Assembly: GCA_003228915.1 (NCBI GenBank)
Contig: QIGL01000041.1
Span: 1 to 44,031 of the forward strand
DNA: 44,031 bases
DNA from: Acidiferrobacteraceae bacterium
Lineage (GTDB): Bacteria; Pseudomonadota; Gammaproteobacteria; Acidiferrobacterales; SZUA-150
Direction: 5' to 3'
This document shows, one piece after another, positions 7,265-29,877 of this stretch (position 1 is the stretch's first letter; every line of letters starts with the position of its first letter). The position numbers and the translations under genes were made by a program. The notes beneath the pieces were generated by a model. That model was not told the DNA's origin. It worked only from the letters and a program-made list of their open reading frames with translations, and did not search any database.

Positions 7265-7316
7265 GCTGGAAAATTAAAATTCTAATATAATTTAAATAAT
7301 TTAAAAACTTGAAATA

Positions 7317-12142: not shown

Positions 12143-12764
12143 TTTGTGACTTACGCAACAATTTCTTCAGGTCTTTGTAAATGTCATTGCCAACAGTTCC
12201 CTGCTCATAATACATCATCAGGTTGCCATGGGGGTCCATCAGGTATATCCGGTGTGAGCCGGGGACATCGTCATTGTCATCTATTTTAAACTGTTCGACC
12301 AATTTTTTTATTTCTTTTTGCGGTGAATTAACCACAATCATTTTCGGATATTCCTTGGCCAGCAATGACCTTAATGCTGGCAAGCCATCATTATCTGTCA
12401 CAATCATATAACGTCGTAATCGTGGTTGATGTTTTGCCTGCAAGGTATGCACTTGCCGCATTTTATACAAGTTGTCTTTGCATGGTTGTTGGCAATTAGC
12501 GGGGCTAACGATAATCATGGCCCATTTATATTTAATATCATCCAGTCCCAGGTTGTTACCGGTAATGGTCTTTAGTGAAAATTCGTCCAGGGGTCGCGCC
12601 GGTACAATTAATGTCCCGTAATTACTGGTCGTGGCTGGTCGCCAGTCACTATTAAACAACCATACCGCGTAAAATAACGGGCCCAGAAATAACACCACCA
12701 GGATAATGATGATTATTTTGTTAATTTTGTTCTTACTTATATTTTCTTTTTCCAGATTTGTCAT
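12135..12764 (-). CDS. SCO-like thioredoxin-fold cytochrome oxidase assembly protein
   Basis: The 209-aa product has one N-terminal membrane anchor (about 16-36), then a periplasmic thioredoxin-like domain. It has a CxxxC pair (Cys91, Cys95 in SPANCQQPC), the spacing used by SCO copper chaperones, and a later His171 in GSHRIYLMDPHGN that could complete a copper site. This matches the small SCO-like protein regularly found between surf1 and ctaA in proteobacterial cox clusters. The likely role is metallation or redox priming of the CuA centre of Cox2. It is not a full SenC/Sco1: similarity is visible only around the motif and the fold. Confidence 0.8.
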   Translation of the reverse strand: MTNLEKENISKNKINKIIIIILVVLFLGPLFYAVWLFNSDWRPATTSNYGTLIVPARPLDEFSLKTITGNNLGLDDIKYKWAMIIVSPANCQQPCKDNLYKMRQVHTLQAKHQPRLRRYMIVTDNDGLPALRSLLAKEYPKMIVVNSPQKEIKKLVEQFKIDDNDDVPGSHRIYLMDPHGNLMMYYEQGTVGNDIYKDLKKLLRKSQIG

Positions 12765-12785
12765 CTCAAAACCTTGTTCAATCGT

Positions 12786-13550
12786 TTACGCATCCGCATC
12801 AGTTTCATTATCTTTTTTATCTTTATTAACATTCTTTTTTTTCTTGAAAGTAGCCAACAGCAACATCACCGTTAAGACCAGTGCCAGCGCAAACCACTGG
12901 AAGGCATAACCATGATGTACTGCAATACCCGCATCCAGTCGTTTCCAGTGCCTGACATATCCACCGGCTTCACTTTCCGGCTCCAGCAGTATCATTGCCG
13001 GTTGTGTTTGCAAACCGGTTAATTTTTGAAAATGATCAATATCCAGTCGCGGCCAGACCGTTTGCCAGGGACTGGCAAATACCGGTAACTCGCCAAGCTG
13101 AAAGCCCCCCTTAACCGGGATCGTGGCAATACCTGTCACTGTTTGCAAACCCTTGGGCGGGTCTACCCTGGGCAAAATTTGCCGCGACTGGCCCAGGAGC
13201 ACCCAACCACGATTCACCAGTATCCGGGTATCACTACCTTTGATAATAATCGGCGTAATAACATGATAACCTGCCCGCCCCTCATGGGTACGATTATCCA
13301 ACAATATCTGGCGGGCGGGATCGTAATAACCACTGGCAGTAACCCGGTAAAAACGTAAATCATCCGCTGCCTGTAATAGACCCGTAACGTTTACGGGGCC
13401 CACGGTTGCCCGGCGGTCGTATTCGTTTTGTAAAATCTGTTTTTCTTCGGCCCGGTTTAATTGCCACACCCCAAGTGAAACCAGGATAGGCAACGCCAGC
13501 GTGGCTGCCAGAATAATACCGAGTGCTGGTTTTAGTTTTTTTAGTGACAT
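12786..13550 (-). CDS. SURF1 family cytochrome oxidase assembly protein
   Basis: Inner-membrane protein of 254 aa with two membrane segments, near 12-28 and 219-238, flanking a periplasmic domain. This is the standard SURF1 topology. Family signatures are LGVWQLNRAEEK near the first helix, ILVNRGWVLLG in the middle and HHGYAFQWFALA at the second helix. SURF1 assists insertion of haem into oxidase subunit I. The Lys/Asp-rich tail (KKKKNVNKDKKDNE) is cytoplasmic. It is followed by the SCO-like gene after 21 bases. Confidence 0.93.
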   Translation of the reverse strand: MSLKKLKPALGIILAATLALPILVSLGVWQLNRAEEKQILQNEYDRRATVGPVNVTGLLQAADDLRFYRVTASGYYDPARQILLDNRTHEGRAGYHVITPIIIKGSDTRILVNRGWVLLGQSRQILPRVDPPKGLQTVTGIATIPVKGGFQLGELPVFASPWQTVWPRLDIDHFQKLTGLQTQPAMILLEPESEAGGYVRHWKRLDAGIAVHHGYAFQWFALALVLTVMLLLATFKKKKNVNKDKKDNETDADA

Positions 13551-23537: not shown

Positions 23538-23999
23538 ATGTTAGACATTGTCCTGTACCAACCCGAAATCCCTCCTAATACAGGCAATATCATCAGACTT
23601 TGCGCCAATACGGGTTATGATTTACACCTGATTAAACCCCTGGGTTTTGATTTAAACGACAAACAATTACGTCGTGCCGGCCTGGATTACCATGAGTTTG
23701 CCAACCTTAACGTCCACGATAATCTGGATAATTATATTCAAGCACGAAAACCTGGCCGCCTTTTGGCGTTTACTACCAAGGCAAAAAACTGTTACACCGA
23801 CATTCAATATCAGCCCGGTGATGCCCTGATTTTTGGCCCGGAAACACGGGGTTTGCCCGCTGAATTTTTGTCTGGTCTGCCTGACCAACAGCGCCTGCGA
23901 TTACCCATGCTGGCTGCTAGCCGCAGCCTGAATCTCTCTAACACGGTGGCCATTGTAGTTTATGAATCCTGGCGCCAGGCAAACTTCAAGGGCAGCTGA
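23538..23999 (+). CDS. trmL: tRNA (cytidine(34)-2'-O)-methyltransferase
   Basis: SPOUT-family methyltransferase that modifies the wobble base of tRNA-Leu isoacceptors. It is 153 aa, the normal size. The N-terminal [20 protein letters not shown], the central FGPETRGLP and the C-terminal knot [23 protein letters not shown] are all intact. It is a single gene with a small element upstream. A damaged paralogous copy lies at 29249-29877. Confidence 0.96.
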
Positions 24000-24267: not shown

Positions 24268-24666
24268 ATGGAAGAACTGAAAAAAATCTTATGCGTGGAA
24301 GATGACCCTGACATCCTAACAGTGGTCACCACTGCACTGGTTACAAGTGGCCTGTCGGTACTGGCTTGTAATTCCGGCCAGGAGGCACTTGAAAAAGTTG
24401 TAACGTTTGGGCCAGATCTAATTTTACTGGATGTCCTGATGCCCGGCATGAATGGACCAGCCACGCTAAAGGCGCTACATGAGTTTCCTGAGATAAAAAA
24501 TATTCCGGTAATTTTTATGACCGCGCTGGCTCAGCCACGCGAAATTTCTCATCTAAAGAAAATGGGGGTACTGGATGTTATCGCAAAACCCTTCGATCCG
24601 ATGTCGCTGGCAGATCAGATTGGCGCCATGTGGAGCAAACGTGGTGGCCAGACATTGTCAAAATAA
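24268..24666 (+). CDS. single-domain response regulator (CheY-like)
   Basis: Receiver domain only, 132 aa. The acidic pair is EDDPD (11-15), the phospho-acceptor is Asp55 (LILLDVLMPG), Thr84 is in FMTAL and Lys106 in IAKPFDP. All residues for phosphorylation are present and there is no output domain. It lies 37 bases before the histidine kinase on the same strand and is a probable partner or phosphate sink for it. Confidence 0.93.
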   Translation: MEELKKILCVEDDPDILTVVTTALVTSGLSVLACNSGQEALEKVVTFGPDLILLDVLMPGMNGPATLKALHEFPEIKNIPVIFMTALAQPREISHLKKMGVLDVIAKPFDPMSLADQIGAMWSKRGGQTLSK

Positions 24667-24703: not shown

Positions 24704-27103
24704 ATGATCTCGACAGCAAACTTTTATCATTCTCTCAAATATTTTATTAGTCGATACCACAGGCTCCTGAAGATTTCCAGCCTGGGGATTGCAAAAAAAA
24801 TCACTCTATTATCAATTTTGTTTGTGGTGGTCACTGCGAGCGTGGCCGTAGTAATCATTTACAACACCACCAATACTGAATTAATAAAGTATGCACTCAG
24901 GAACTTATCCTACGAGGTGGCTAACAAAGGCGTAGATTTTTCGGATAAGATCACCCGGTTACAAAAAGAGGTGCGTTTCCTTATAGGAACAGCGCCCATC
25001 CAGGGCATGATACAGGTGCACAAGACCAGTAGAAAAAGTCCCACGGGAAAATCCGCTGACCAACAATGGCGTCAACGTCTGGAACTTATTTTCTTATCCC
25101 GCTTGCAAGCCAATCTTAACTATCTCCAAATCCGTTATATCGATGTATTGGGAAAAGAACTTGTCCGAGTAGAACGAAAACAGGGGGAAATATATGTCGT
25201 CCCTACTTCAGGCTTGCAGAATAAATCAGGCCGACCCTATGTAAAAAAAATTATTAAATTACAGAAAGGAGCGGTCTATTTATCAGATATTAATCTCAAT
25301 CGTGAACACGGTCGTATTGTAGAACCTCATGTCGTGGTTTTGCGTGTTGCCACGCCAGTGGTTGACAACAATGACACTGTGATTGGATTTGTAATTATTA
25401 ACGTAGATTTCGGCAAGGAACTTGAACGTATTAAACAACAGTATGCCGGGTATGCAAGATCTCTATATATAGCTGATAGTAAAGGTAGTTACCTGTTGCA
25501 CCCTGTCCCTAATAAGATTTTTAGTAGCGATCTTGGCAGTGGCCACCTTATACAGAAAGAATTTCCCCGTGTTTCGGCACTCTATTCTTCTCACAACAAA
25601 GAGTTAAGTTTAACAGTGTTACCTCAAGGCGCTAACAGTATGGCTACAGCGTTTACTAAAATATTCTACGGGCCAACGAAGCTTGATCAATTCATCGTAA
25701 TCGGACTTGCAGAGCCATATAGCGATATTGTTTTGGCCTGGGGTGCCATGCTGGAAAAGAGCATCATCTGGTCATTGATTTTAATTTTGTTCAGCGGGTT
25801 GTTTGCCTTCAGGTTTTCCGCACTGCTCGTTAAACCATTGGAACAGATTACTCGAAGTGTAAGTGGTTATATGCATGGGGATTTGTCTGGTTCTTTGCCT
25901 GTTTCCCGAAAAGATGAAATTGGCAACCTTGCAAAAGCATTCAGAAATTTAATGAATCGAGTCACAATAAATCAGGTTGAATTATCTGAGTTGAACCTGA
26001 ATCTGGAGAACCTGGTAGAAGAACGTACCAGCAGACTAAAGGAAGCCGAAACCTATCAACGGGCAATTCTGGAAACGGTGGCAGATGCTATAATCACAAT
26101 TGACTCAAATAGTTTTATTCGCACTTTCAATCAAGCTGCCGAGAAAATTTTTGGCTACAAAGCCGCGGAGCTGATCGGACAGAATGTTTCGATTCTATTG
26201 CCAAAACCGGAACAAAAGAAACACGAGGAATATGTTGCAAACTCAAATCTCCAACGGTCCCGTATCATAAATGAAACCCGTGACCTGAAGGGCCGCCATA
26301 AAGACGGCACCATGATTCCATTAGAACTGACAGTGTCACGAATGCAGATGTCGGATGGTCAGTACGGATTTGTGGGTGTTTTGCGTGATATTACCGAGCG
26401 CAAGCGTATCGAGAAACTGAAAAACGAGTTTGTGTCGACCGTAAGCCACGAGCTGAGAACTCCTCTTACCTCCATACACGGAGCACTGCGTTTGCTTGTC
26501 AGTGGTAAACTGGGCGAGCTACCTGAAGAAGCTAAAAACATGTTAGAGATCGCGAATAATAATAGCGAGCGATTGATGCTGTTGATTAACGATATTCTGG
26601 ACATAGAGAAGATCGAATCTCAGCAAATGGTATATAACTTACAGGAGATGGAGGTTATGTCATTCCTGGAAAAGGCTGTAAATGATAATGTTGGTTACAG
26701 TAAGGAACATGGCATTGATTTCAGGATTGTGCAGAGACTTGATGATATCAGGGTATCTGTTGACCCTGATCGACTCATGCAGGTCTTCAGCAACTTATTG
26801 TCTAATGCTGCCAATTATTCACCAAAAGACAGGATAGTTGAGATTGGCCTGACTCGACATAACGGTATGGTGCGTATTTCGGTTACTAACTTCGGGCCTG
26901 AAATTCCAAAGGATTTCCAGCCCAAGCTGTTTGACAAGTTTACCCAGGCAAACAGTGAGGAGGTACGCCGGAAAGGTGGTACCGGTCTGGGACTTTCTAT
27001 TAGCAAGGCACTGGTAGAAGAAATGGGAGGTCGTATCAGCTTCGTTAGCAAGAAAGGAAGCGGAACGACTTTTTATATTGATTTACCAGAAATAACAGGG
27101 TGA
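24704..27103 (+). CDS. sensor histidine kinase (Cache-like sensor, HAMP, PAS, HisKA, HATPase)
   Basis: Membrane sensor kinase of 799 aa. The first helix is at about 31-53 and the second at about 352-374. The roughly 300-residue periplasmic region between them looks like a double Cache domain (LQIRYIDVLGKELVRVER, VGFVIINVD-like strands, SLYIADSKGSYLLHP). A HAMP linker (about 375-428) and a PAS domain (about 450-565, ILETVADAIITIDSNSFIRTFNQAAEKIFGY) follow. The HisKA box is VSTVSHELRTPLTS with His582. The HATPase has NLLSNAANYSP and GGTGLGLSISK. The ligand is unknown. It probably works with the CheY-like protein and possibly with the convergent BldC-like regulator. Confidence 0.93.
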   Translation: MISTANFYHSLKYFISRYHRLLKISSLGIAKKITLLSILFVVVTASVAVVIIYNTTNTELIKYALRNLSYEVANKGVDFSDKITRLQKEVRFLIGTAPIQGMIQVHKTSRKSPTGKSADQQWRQRLELIFLSRLQANLNYLQIRYIDVLGKELVRVERKQGEIYVVPTSGLQNKSGRPYVKKIIKLQKGAVYLSDINLNREHGRIVEPHVVVLRVATPVVDNNDTVIGFVIINVDFGKELERIKQQYAGYARSLYIADSKGSYLLHPVPNKIFSSDLGSGHLIQKEFPRVSALYSSHNKELSLTVLPQGANSMATAFTKIFYGPTKLDQFIVIGLAEPYSDIVLAWGAMLEKSIIWSLILILFSGLFAFRFSALLVKPLEQITRSVSGYMHGDLSGSLPVSRKDEIGNLAKAFRNLMNRVTINQVELSELNLNLENLVEERTSRLKEAETYQRAILETVADAIITIDSNSFIRTFNQAAEKIFGYKAAELIGQNVSILLPKPEQKKHEEYVANSNLQRSRIINETRDLKGRHKDGTMIPLELTVSRMQMSDGQYGFVGVLRDITERKRIEKLKNEFVSTVSHELRTPLTSIHGALRLLVSGKLGELPEEAKNMLEIANNNSERLMLLINDILDIEKIESQQMVYNLQEMEVMSFLEKAVNDNVGYSKEHGIDFRIVQRLDDIRVSVDPDRLMQVFSNLLSNAANYSPKDRIVEIGLTRHNGMVRISVTNFGPEIPKDFQPKLFDKFTQANSEEVRRKGGTGLGLSISKALVEEMGGRISFVSKKGSGTTFYIDLPEITG

Positions 27104-27766: not shown

Positions 27767-27833
27767 ATCTGTGCCTCTTTGATTTATTCGCGGTTTTCCG
27801 AAATATTGCCTGGAAAATAATCATATTATTTTT

Positions 27834-27851
27834 GTTATTACCGTTATTTCT
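27834..27851 (+). repeat. 9-bp direct repeats, regulator side
   Basis: Two consecutive 9-base units starting with GTTATT (27834 and 27843), preceded by a degenerate unit (27825). They share the 14-base TTATTACCGTTATT with the other end of the spacer, in the same orientation. They lie 68-85 bases before the regulator's longer start. A possible minus-strand -10 TATAAT (27886-27891) would place them just downstream of transcription start, suiting autorepression. Confidence 0.55.
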
Positions 27852-28121
27852 ATAATAGTTTAAATTTTCATTCAATGAAACCGGCATTATATCGCCACGG
27901 AAAAAATAATTATATCTCACTGTTTATTATACTATTTTCTGCAACTAATGGATGACAATTACATTTTAACAAAAAATCATTCTTGTAATTTAAATCCAGC
28001 CTTATGCCAGGCAGTTTTCCCAGATATTGCGTAACATACTGTTAAACATGCAAAATATAGAGCATTGCTAGACAAACCTTGACAGCACATGAAACCTAGC
28101 CATACTTAAATCAATATTTCT
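27852..28121. other. AT-rich divergent spacer
   Basis: Spacer between the regulator (minus) and a lipoprotein gene (plus). No coding region is supported. Its notable contents are the direct repeats at both ends, annotated separately. Confidence 0.5.
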
Positions 28122-28157
28122 GTTATTTCTGTTATTTTATTTATTACCGTTATTACT
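28122..28157 (+). repeat. 9-bp direct repeats, lipoprotein side
   Basis: Four consecutive 9-base units begin at 28122, 28131, 28140 and 28149. Three start with GTTATT and one with TTTATT (approximate consensus GTTATTNCY). The unit pair at 28140-28157 repeats the 14-base TTATTACCGTTATT found at 27835-27848. The array ends 19 bases before the lipoprotein ATG, next to its GAGG ribosome-binding site. This is the head-to-tail arrangement expected for a BldC-like DNA-binding protein. Confidence 0.6.
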
Positions 28158-28176
28158 GCTGACGAGGTATAGAATC

Positions 28177-29019
28177 ATGTTTTTATTCAACAAAACAAGC
28201 AAATTTCCCCTGGGCCTTATCATGGTTTCTTTTTTATTGACGGCTTGCGGTGAGAGTGGGAGTGGATCAGCTCAGCCAGAAGGCGATACTGCTGCCCCGG
28301 CATTGACTCTCGAGCAACAATATACCGCTGAAAGAATTTATCGAAATAAGCGTTTTCCAGTAAATTTTGTATTCCCGAATATCTGGAATACCAGTGCTAA
28401 CGGTATCACCAAACACGCAATGACCACCGATGTTTCGTTGTTCGCCAAGTTGTTGGTAATACCTGTCTTTGAATTGAGTACAGACAACTGGCAGGAAGCA
28501 ATAGCGTGGTCCGAAGAAGCGGCGCAAAAACTTCCTGTTTATTATGGCCTGGTGGATTTGAGTGAGAACAATATGTATTTCGATCTGATTCGCGTGAATC
28601 CCGACCTGCCTGATGTGATTTACCACAGCCTGATTTTCAAGGACTCCTTTATTGATCGCAGCGGCGTAGATCTTGATAATCCAGGCCCCCACATGGGTTA
28701 TATCTCGTTAAATTCTGTTGGAGAGGAAGTTATTGATTCTGTTGTAGAGCATCTTTTTCTCAGCTCTCCCCATAATCAATACGGATATGCCGTTATCGAA
28801 GAGGGGAGCGAAGAGCTTGCTGAAGAATACAGGCATACCATGATAGAGGCTGAACTTGTGTCGGGCTCTGGTTCATGTGACACCATTCGTGTCTTCGAGG
28901 TAACCCATCGTATTAGCAAAATAACGGGTGAAATGACTGGCGAGACCCGGGATTTGTATGAATTCAGGGCGGTTGTGGATGCTGATGGCAACGTAAGGGC
29001 TTGTGCTCGTCGGATCTGA
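28177..29019 (+). CDS. lipoprotein of unknown function
   Basis: The 280-aa product has a lipoprotein signal ending in LLTAC (Cys24), followed by a Gly/Ser-rich linker. The rest is soluble and acidic with no membrane segments. It contains two Cys in the C-terminal part (GSGSCDTIRVFEV and VRACARRI) that could form a disulfide. I recognise no family. The gene is divergent from the BldC-like response regulator and its upstream region carries the 9-bp repeats, so it may be a target of that regulator. The frame, lipobox and ribosome-binding site support it as real. Confidence 0.8.
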   Translation: MFLFNKTSKFPLGLIMVSFLLTACGESGSGSAQPEGDTAAPALTLEQQYTAERIYRNKRFPVNFVFPNIWNTSANGITKHAMTTDVSLFAKLLVIPVFELSTDNWQEAIAWSEEAAQKLPVYYGLVDLSENNMYFDLIRVNPDLPDVIYHSLIFKDSFIDRSGVDLDNPGPHMGYISLNSVGEEVIDSVVEHLFLSSPHNQYGYAVIEEGSEELAEEYRHTMIEAELVSGSGSCDTIRVFEVTHRISKITGEMTGETRDLYEFRAVVDADGNVRACARRI

Positions 29020-29248: not shown

Positions 29249-29877
29249 ATGTCCATCAGACTTTGTACCAATGCAGGTGATGACCTGCATCTGACCAAAC
29301 CCCTGGGGTTTGATTTAAACAACAAACAACTGCGCCGTGCCGGCCTCGATTATCACGAGTTTGCCAAGCTTAATGTCCATGATGATCTGGAAAGTTATAT
29401 TCAATCGCAACAACCCGGCCGTCTCCCACTACTGTCCCACATAATAAATACCAAAGTGCATTGAAAGCCCTTATACCAGCAATGTCATGATGCTGAACGG
29501 TGTGCGGACATGAAATTCTAAAACAGGAAGTGCGTCATACCCGCGAAAGCGGGTACCCAGTAAATAGTTGATTAACTGCTCATTAAAATACCTGGATACC
29601 CGCTTTCGCGGGTATGACGATTTTGTGGGACAGTAGTGGGTCGCCTCCTGGCATTTACCACCAAGGCTAAAACACGTTACACCGACATTCAATATCAGCC
29701 CGGAGACGCCCTGATTTTTGACCCGGAAACACGGGGTTTGCCCGCTGAGTTCTTGTCTGGTTTACCTGACCAATAGCGCCCGCGACTGCCCCTGCTGGCC
29801 GCAGTCTCAATTTGTCCAACACAGTGGCCATTGTAGTTTATGAATCCTGGCGCCAGACAAACTTCAAAGGCATCTGA
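29249..29877 (+). pseudogene. trmL: trmL pseudogene interrupted by a small element
   Basis: Second, decayed copy of trmL. It aligns with the intact gene from the codons for IRLCANTG to the C-terminal [11 protein letters not shown], and lacks about the first 18 codons. It carries four lesions: the N-terminal loss, a 216-base insertion (29425-29640), a nonsense change (CAG to TAG at 29774-29776) and a 7-base deletion in the AASRSL region. Many differences from the intact copy are at third codon positions, so it probably diverged as a working gene before decaying. Confidence 0.88.
29425..29640. repeat. Small element with 17-bp terminal inverted repeats, copy 2
   Basis: CCCACTACTGTCCCACA (29425-29441) is exactly inverted at 29624-29640, bounding 216 bases inserted in the trmL pseudogene. 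Inside is a second inverted repeat of 28 bases per arm (29533-29560 and 29592-29619, one mismatch) with the core ACCCGCGAAAGCGGGT, a type of palindrome common in proteobacterial spacers. No gene inside. It shares its ends, but not its interior, with the element at 23171-23397. Confidence 0.8.

Follow-up and report, generated by a model that had tools for sequence, protein, structure and literature searches.

Two arrays of 9-bp direct repeats as predicted operators of a BldC-type response regulator, with repeat units that vary together with the recognition helix across its relatives

Introduction

The closest described system is BldC of Streptomyces, which binds DNA cooperatively and head to tail, with one protomer on each 9-bp direct repeat, and distorts it (PMC5859096); an earlier note on the DNA studied here had pointed to its head-to-tail binding of direct repeats. 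The BldC repeat reads AATTXXXX(C), and Arg30 of the protein reads a pyrimidine-G step (PMC5859096). In a 2019 paper, BldC sites were called not predictable by bioinformatics (PMC6428758). Other systems share some of these traits. The B12-dependent MerR-like regulators CarH and CarA also place MerR-like domains on tandem direct repeats over promoters, which they repress, and differ in having 11-bp repeats, a cobalamin domain and defined oligomers (PMC9304148). Response regulators of the OmpR/PhoB type, such as PhoP and PmrA, recognise direct repeats too (PMC5859096), with a different DNA-binding domain that follows the receiver. Structure 3cnb (Colwellia) comes from a protein that carries the annotation of a MerR-family DNA-binding response regulator; its numbering (65-187) fits a helix-turn-helix (HTH) followed by a receiver, the structure comprises the receiver alone, and we found no reported DNA site for it. 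Excisionases of the Xis/RdfS type carry a related winged helix (4j2n, Z 8.3; 8dgl, Z 7.3) and act in recombination; we know of none with a receiver domain, and we saw no integrase among the open reading frames (ORFs) near the array. Xis itself forms a head-to-tail filament (PMC6428758).

Here we analyse a stretch of 44,031 bases from an Acidiferrobacteraceae bacterium (the window), in which a response regulator gene and a divergent lipoprotein gene are separated by a spacer with two arrays of 9-bp repeats. The HTH of this regulator is N-terminal. The regulator and its relatives resemble BldC (structures 6ama and 6amk) in their winged helix, in a variable number of 9-bp direct repeats and in a unit where an AT tract is followed by a C four bases on; relatives whose Arg30 matches that of BldC carry units like GATTTGGAC, near the AATTCGGAC of BldC. 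BldC is a stand-alone protein of 68 aa with degenerate sites, whereas this family is fused to a receiver and has some near-perfect arrays. Another difference from BldC is that the relatives differ in their helix and the unit changes along with it.

Results

The earlier note had pointed out one 14-base sequence, TTATTACCGTTATT, at both ends of the spacer. A scan of both strands confirms exactly two copies in the window (27835-27848 and 28141-28154), and 100 dinucleotide shuffles of the window contained none. The copies belong to tandem 9-bp units (Table 1) that can be read in one common register across the two arrays. For array 1, the previous count of two units plus a weak one stands; for array 2, the count of four becomes four to five. 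Array 1 lies on the upstream side of the regulator gene, some 60-90 bp from its ATG, and the ATG of the lipoprotein gene follows 16 bp beyond the end of array 2.

Table 1. Features of the regulator/lipoprotein locus (positions in the window).
Feature	Position	Strand	Remarks
Stand-alone receiver protein, 132 aa, upstream of kinase	24268..24666	+	Receiver-domain matches
Membrane sensor histidine kinase, convergent with regulator	24704..27103	+	Pfam sensor-HAMP-PAS-HisKA-HATPase
Response regulator, 205 aa	27149..27766	-	BldC/MerR-type winged HTH and receiver
Array 1	27828-27854	+	Three 9-bp units: ATTTTTGTT ATTACCGTT ATTTCTATA
Putative regulator -10 box	27852..27857	-	TATTAT, read from the sequence; touches array 1
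Putative sigma-70 promoter of lipoprotein gene	28079..28106	+	TTGACA-16-CATACT, 10/12 consensus matches
Array 2	28116-28160	+	Five 9-bp units: ATTTCTGTT ATTTCTGTT ATTTTATTT ATTACCGTT ATTACTGCT
Lipoprotein, 280 aa, divergent, function not assigned	28177..29019	+	Lipobox LLTACG by eye; likely target

When the lag-9 runs of the window are ranked, array 2 comes first (score 19), followed by runs of 14 (at 12797) and 13 (at 7287); array 1 is weak by this score alone (8). A weight matrix derived from array 2 nevertheless identifies array 1 as the best remaining site of the window (22.8 bits, with a maximum of 16.4 outside the spacer), and the matrix of array 1 gives array 2 a score of 23.5, the top site elsewhere than the spacer reaching 13.3. 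A period of 9, taken alone, is no rarity in the AT-rich DNA of the window, where eight lag-9 runs score at least 9 (zero to two runs at lags 7, 8, 10 and 11), and the case for the arrays therefore rests on comparative evidence. The AT-rich lag-9 runs at 12700-12850 and 7287-7314 (scores 11-14) match the array unit poorly. The arrays share the spacer with a 20-nt direct repeat (27790-27809 and 28011-28030, 85% identical), which shows no visible conservation in the sister genome described below.

The regulator has a winged HTH (residues 13-62) and a receiver (residues 77-190), with Pfam E-values of 1e-10 (HTH_17), 5e-9 (MerR) and 7e-16 (Response_reg), and its AlphaFold model has a pLDDT of 91.2. 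Since comparison of the whole-protein fold returned receivers only, the HTH was folded separately for structure comparison. The top match is 6ama, a BldC-DNA complex (Z 9.5, 57 aligned, rmsd 2.1), and the second is 6amk, also a BldC-DNA complex (Z 9.0, 51 aligned, rmsd 1.0); the later matches start at Z 8.3, so that several lie within 1 of 6amk. By sequence, the HTH has three PDB matches in all, two of which are BldC (again 6ama and 6amk). These searches bear out the BldC/MerR-like domain that had been proposed for the regulator, and the modelled HTH is closest in fold to the BldC-type DNA-binding domain. The regulator is not a BldC protein in the strict sense, given its score against the curated NCBIfam model HTH_BldC (39.4 bits, below the cut-off of 77) and its receiver domain. 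Its residue numbers are those of BldC plus 2. In BldC numbering, it keeps T27, W31, T42, G44, H46, R47 and R48, and has Arg for K26, Gln for T29, Leu for R30 and Pro for L43; it thus lacks the base-reading Arg30 and the interface Leu43 of BldC. Across the 102 relatives defined below, W31 is present in 91, G44 in 100, H46 in 99 and R48 in 100, and the phospho-acceptor Asp127 and Lys179 of the receiver are found in all 102. The regulator matched no MerR-type sensor region, the HTH being followed by the receiver, and the Pfam search gave no match to a B12 domain.

A relative of the same genus (L003/L032) has a regulator that is 93% identical, the same two flanking genes and the same spacer layout. 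The two arrays are conserved in this sister genome (28 of 32 bases at 27826-27857 for array 1, 34 of 43 at 28115-28157 for array 2), and so are the lipoprotein -35 and -10 boxes (6/6 bases each), whereas the stretch between the arrays has diverged (127 of 221 bases identical, 57%). The sister spacer is still periodic despite partly different units in array 2 (lag-18 score 18, lag-9 score 8). The direct repeats are thus what the sister conserves, which weighs against an operator in the form of a classical MerR-type palindrome within the spacer. Such a palindrome would be in line with the match of the HTH to MerR profiles as well, and the spacer does hold inverted repeats at 27949-27998 (80% complementary) and 27802-28018 (83%). 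Both are imperfect, however, neither forms a compact element within a promoter, and a receiver comes after the HTH with no MerR-type sensor region matched; on this evidence, a palindromic operator is scarcely credible. A classical MerR identity of the regulator, which would call for a C-terminal coiled coil and a palindromic site between -35 and -10, was rejected on two of these grounds, the receiver after the HTH and the lack of a compact palindrome in the promoter.

The positions of the arrays relative to the putative promoters can be read in Table 1. Array 2 begins 9 bp past the lipoprotein -10 box and would therefore cover the start site and the leader of that gene. On the regulator side, TATTAT is the best sigma-70-like site upstream of the sister gene; in the window it has a weak -35 and is absent from the promoter scan, and the search that picked it in the sister ranked a different site best for the window itself.

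The histidine kinase gene is also a neighbour in the sister (L032), and its product is a candidate for the kinase of the regulator; the 132-aa receiver protein is a possible phosphorelay partner. The lipoprotein has neither Pfam nor NCBIfam matches, and homologues were found in 2 of 59 other genomes searched (71% and 25% identity). The 25% homologue (L286, genome G004) lies directly after an apparent trmL 3' end, as read by eye. A search of G004 for the regulator at E<=1e-20 gave no match, and the homologue is without a clear array (lag-9 score 7, lag-10 score 8). In the window, trmL (23538-23999) and a 71-aa trmL fragment (29249-29464), 79% identical across 57 aa, bracket the block of receiver, kinase, regulator and lipoprotein genes. 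This arrangement, together with the two longer trmL-like ORFs of the sister genome, suggests a duplication around the block. A minus-strand ORF at 29471-29692 encodes SYPRKRVS...TRFRGYD, which we take to be typical of translated proteobacterial intergenic repeats.

A genome scan for further arrays with the 9-base period, as the earlier note had proposed, yielded no convincing target outside the spacer with either a two-unit or a three-unit pattern. In the 2.66-Mb genome of the organism, the three-unit pattern (at most 3 mismatches) has 8 sites, and a reversed-pattern control likewise has 8. Four of the sites, one without mismatches and three with 2, fall inside the array spacer; the four others have 3 mismatches each, and one of these is also in the spacer. 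The two-unit pattern shows a mild genome-wide enrichment (117 sites against 79 in the control). The match at L210 was inspected and is not obviously placed in a promoter.

To compare upstream regions, we collected full-length relatives by searching whole genomes at E<=1e-28, with matches in 29 of the 369 class genomes and 70 of the 398 in a phylum sample, and added extra loci. The resulting 209 loci gave 102 non-identical genes encoding a BldC-type HTH and a receiver; these are the members of a unique set of 103 that have E<1e-25 and cover the HTH, the one left out being a match of L082 (6e-17). A search of the class of genome G447 added no genome with a match. For each gene, we computed the best ungapped self-match at lags 4-20 within 230 bp upstream. 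The 102 upstreams average 10.37 at lag 9, where shuffles average 4.41, and 7.55 at lag 18; the remaining lags have means of 4.37-4.89. The lag-9 means of controls are 4.79 (39 upstreams of neighbouring genes) and 5.01 (100 downstream regions). A CarH-like period of 11 bp was rejected, since lag 11 is at background in the family. Lag-9 scores of at least 8 occur in 60/102 family upstreams and in 10/105 upstreams of unrelated genes (intergenic-like; GC 0.39 against 0.41). The earlier note had named equal frequency in unrelated AT-rich spacers as the outcome that would speak against it; what we found is 10/77 in the controls with GC below 0.45, far from the family value. The period is also seen among members with less than 60% protein identity, where 38/66 upstreams reach 8 at lag 9, compared with a mean of 3.5 (maximum 7) of the same 66 when lags 9 and 18 are set aside.

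Some of these arrays are long, as in L183 (TGCAAGATT, more than 7 units), L005 (ATCGGAAAT, almost five units) and L142 and L141 (GATTTTGTC-like, about 8 units). A lag-9 run of score 8 is absent from 42/102 family upstreams, and none of the three named plasmid-borne relatives examined has a clear array. Members with Trp31 reach a lag-9 score of 8 in 54/91 cases (mean 10.7), those without it in 6/11 (mean 7.5). L033, L188, L196, L197 and L289 lack both Trp31 and a clear array (L289 stands outside the count of 11). An order-level follow-up search added 12 loci, with lag-9 scores of at least 8 in 10 and of 7 in two; each of the sequences read has TGATAA or TGATAC-like units at 9-bp spacing and a Gln-Leu helix. 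As 11 of the 12 come from one genus and are close to earlier members, they serve as a consistency check and not as an independent sample. When about 1.5 kb around the relatives' genes was scanned for a second array, one of the 46 loci tested (L202) had a site that scored above every one of 60 column scrambles. The relatives thus do not as a rule have a separate array close to a neighbouring gene.

These comparisons bear on the idea that the repeats are products of slippage, or low-complexity AT sequence without function. It draws some support from the other lag-9 runs in the AT-rich DNA of the window and from the mild genome-wide enrichment of two-unit matches. Against it stand the shuffles and controls, with a lag-9 signal clearly above that of unrelated genes' upstreams, the match between two arrays that lie 300 bp from each other, their conservation on either side of a diverged stretch, and the retention of period 9 with differing sequences between relatives. 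We consider such an origin most improbable.

Of the 60 arrays, 37 overlap the region from -35 to +18 of the best sigma-70-like site, where random placement gives 23.5 (sd 3.7); this excess is modest, and AT-rich arrays may themselves resemble promoters. The arrays could be operators of the regulator at which binding activates, or has opposite effects on the two promoters, with activation at one and repression at the other. Some relatives do carry their array ahead of the -35 of their best site or on top of it, and not after the -10, and the BldC footprint at whiI runs from -50 to -80 (PMC5859096). In the window, however, the arrays abut or follow a putative -10 box, as in L005 and L006, a placement that suits blocking with respect to these predicted starts. 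Activation is thus an unlikely reading, albeit one with some weight.

The spelling of the unit varies widely between relatives and yet follows the recognition helix. We used the 60 arrays scoring at least 8, reduced to 53 (proteins less than 75% identical) or 42 (less than 60%). In the set of 53, unit similarity is associated with identity at BldC positions 25, 26, 29, 30 and 33 when receiver identity is controlled for (partial r 0.303), a value reached by 0/5000 permutations (maximum 0.189), although these permutation values are not exact probabilities because the genes are related by descent. When single columns are scanned for their prediction of the unit, near-invariant columns being set aside, position 29 comes out on top and position 30 next. 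In the set of 42, mean unit similarity is 0.640 when residues 29-30 are shared and 0.483 otherwise (0/5000 permutations). The difference holds among pairs with 20-38% receiver identity (0.654 in 48 pairs sharing residues 29-30, 0.490 in 535 others).

The classes defined by residues 29-30 have the units TTTATCATT (Gln-Leu), TTTTGCAAT (His-Tyr), TTAATCGWT (Arg-Gln), TTGGACGAT (Lys-Arg) and TTTGTCGNT (Lys-Gly), in a common register that was obtained by fitting an alignment from 40 starts and keeping the best, and that serves for display and not as a test. Most classes share a C-purine step, with A or G after the C. Two Gln-Leu members, the window regulator and L005, deviate from their class by a C-G step (ATTACCGTT and ATTTCCGAT), and residues 29-30 are therefore insufficient alone to fix the unit. 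L205, L207 and L208, which combine Arg30 with Lys29 and Trp31, have units close to that of BldC. The C-purine step corresponds to the pyrimidine-G step read by BldC Arg30 (PMC5859096). Arg occurs at position 26 in 52/102 relatives and is a candidate for reading the C-purine step in members without Arg30.

This covariation is not predicted by an unrelated binder, that is, by a different regulator acting on the arrays next to a regulator gene that is there by chance. The loss of some BldC DNA-contact residues from the window regulator would be compatible with a different binder, but the unit tracks the recognition helix of the adjacent protein and arrays precede 60/102 relatives. This alternative seems very unlikely to us.

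Discussion

The family-wide period, the conservation in the sister and the covariation of helix and unit support the earlier proposal that the arrays are candidate operators of the adjacent regulator. Together they indicate that the repeats are very probably its own operators, which it would bind head to tail as BldC does, under a phosphorylatable receiver. The full reading, in which the arrays are head-to-tail operators, both promoters are blocked and the receiver gates binding, we hold to be likely, with good confidence.

In the mechanism that we propose, several protomers would sit side by side and head to tail, each 9-bp unit being occupied by a single BldC-type winged helix. Such an arrangement of one protomer per repeat would explain a fixed 9-bp period with a variable number of units. 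The wing would lie in the AT-rich part of the unit, and the recognition helix would read the bases around the conserved C-purine step, which would be presented as a pyrimidine-G step on the opposite strand. As array 1 touches the regulator -10 box and array 2 lies just past that of the lipoprotein gene, filled arrays would, in the simplest case, block RNA polymerase at both promoters, with autorepression and repression of the lipoprotein gene as the outcome. Filament assembly would presumably be controlled through phosphorylation of the receiver by a histidine kinase, which may be the one encoded next to the regulator. We infer head-to-tail binding from the published work on BldC, and repression at both promoters from position only. 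Control by phosphorylation and the identity of the kinase are guesses, the role given to the receiver coming from its conserved residues.

Looking beyond this locus, helix positions 26, 29 and 30 might form a readable and possibly programmable code for the unit, and the relatives might represent a widespread class of response regulators that occupy such arrays as head-to-tail filaments, with growth gated by phosphorylation of the receiver; we put this forward tentatively, as an idea with somewhat less than even prospects. In the literature searched, we found no description of the sites of this receiver-fused family or of the covariation of helix and unit. What appears to be new here is the scale, i.e., a response-regulator family with predicted 9-bp operator arrays and helix-linked units.

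For these receiver-fused relatives of BldC, predicted operators can be read from their 9-bp periodicity, whereas the sites of BldC were called unpredictable (PMC6428758). Natural variation ties helix residues to unit bases, and the recognition code of a filament-forming DNA-binding domain, together with its control by phosphorylation, would thus be testable with short oligonucleotides. The arrays also suggest a likely function for response regulators whose records say just 'response regulator' or 'merR'.
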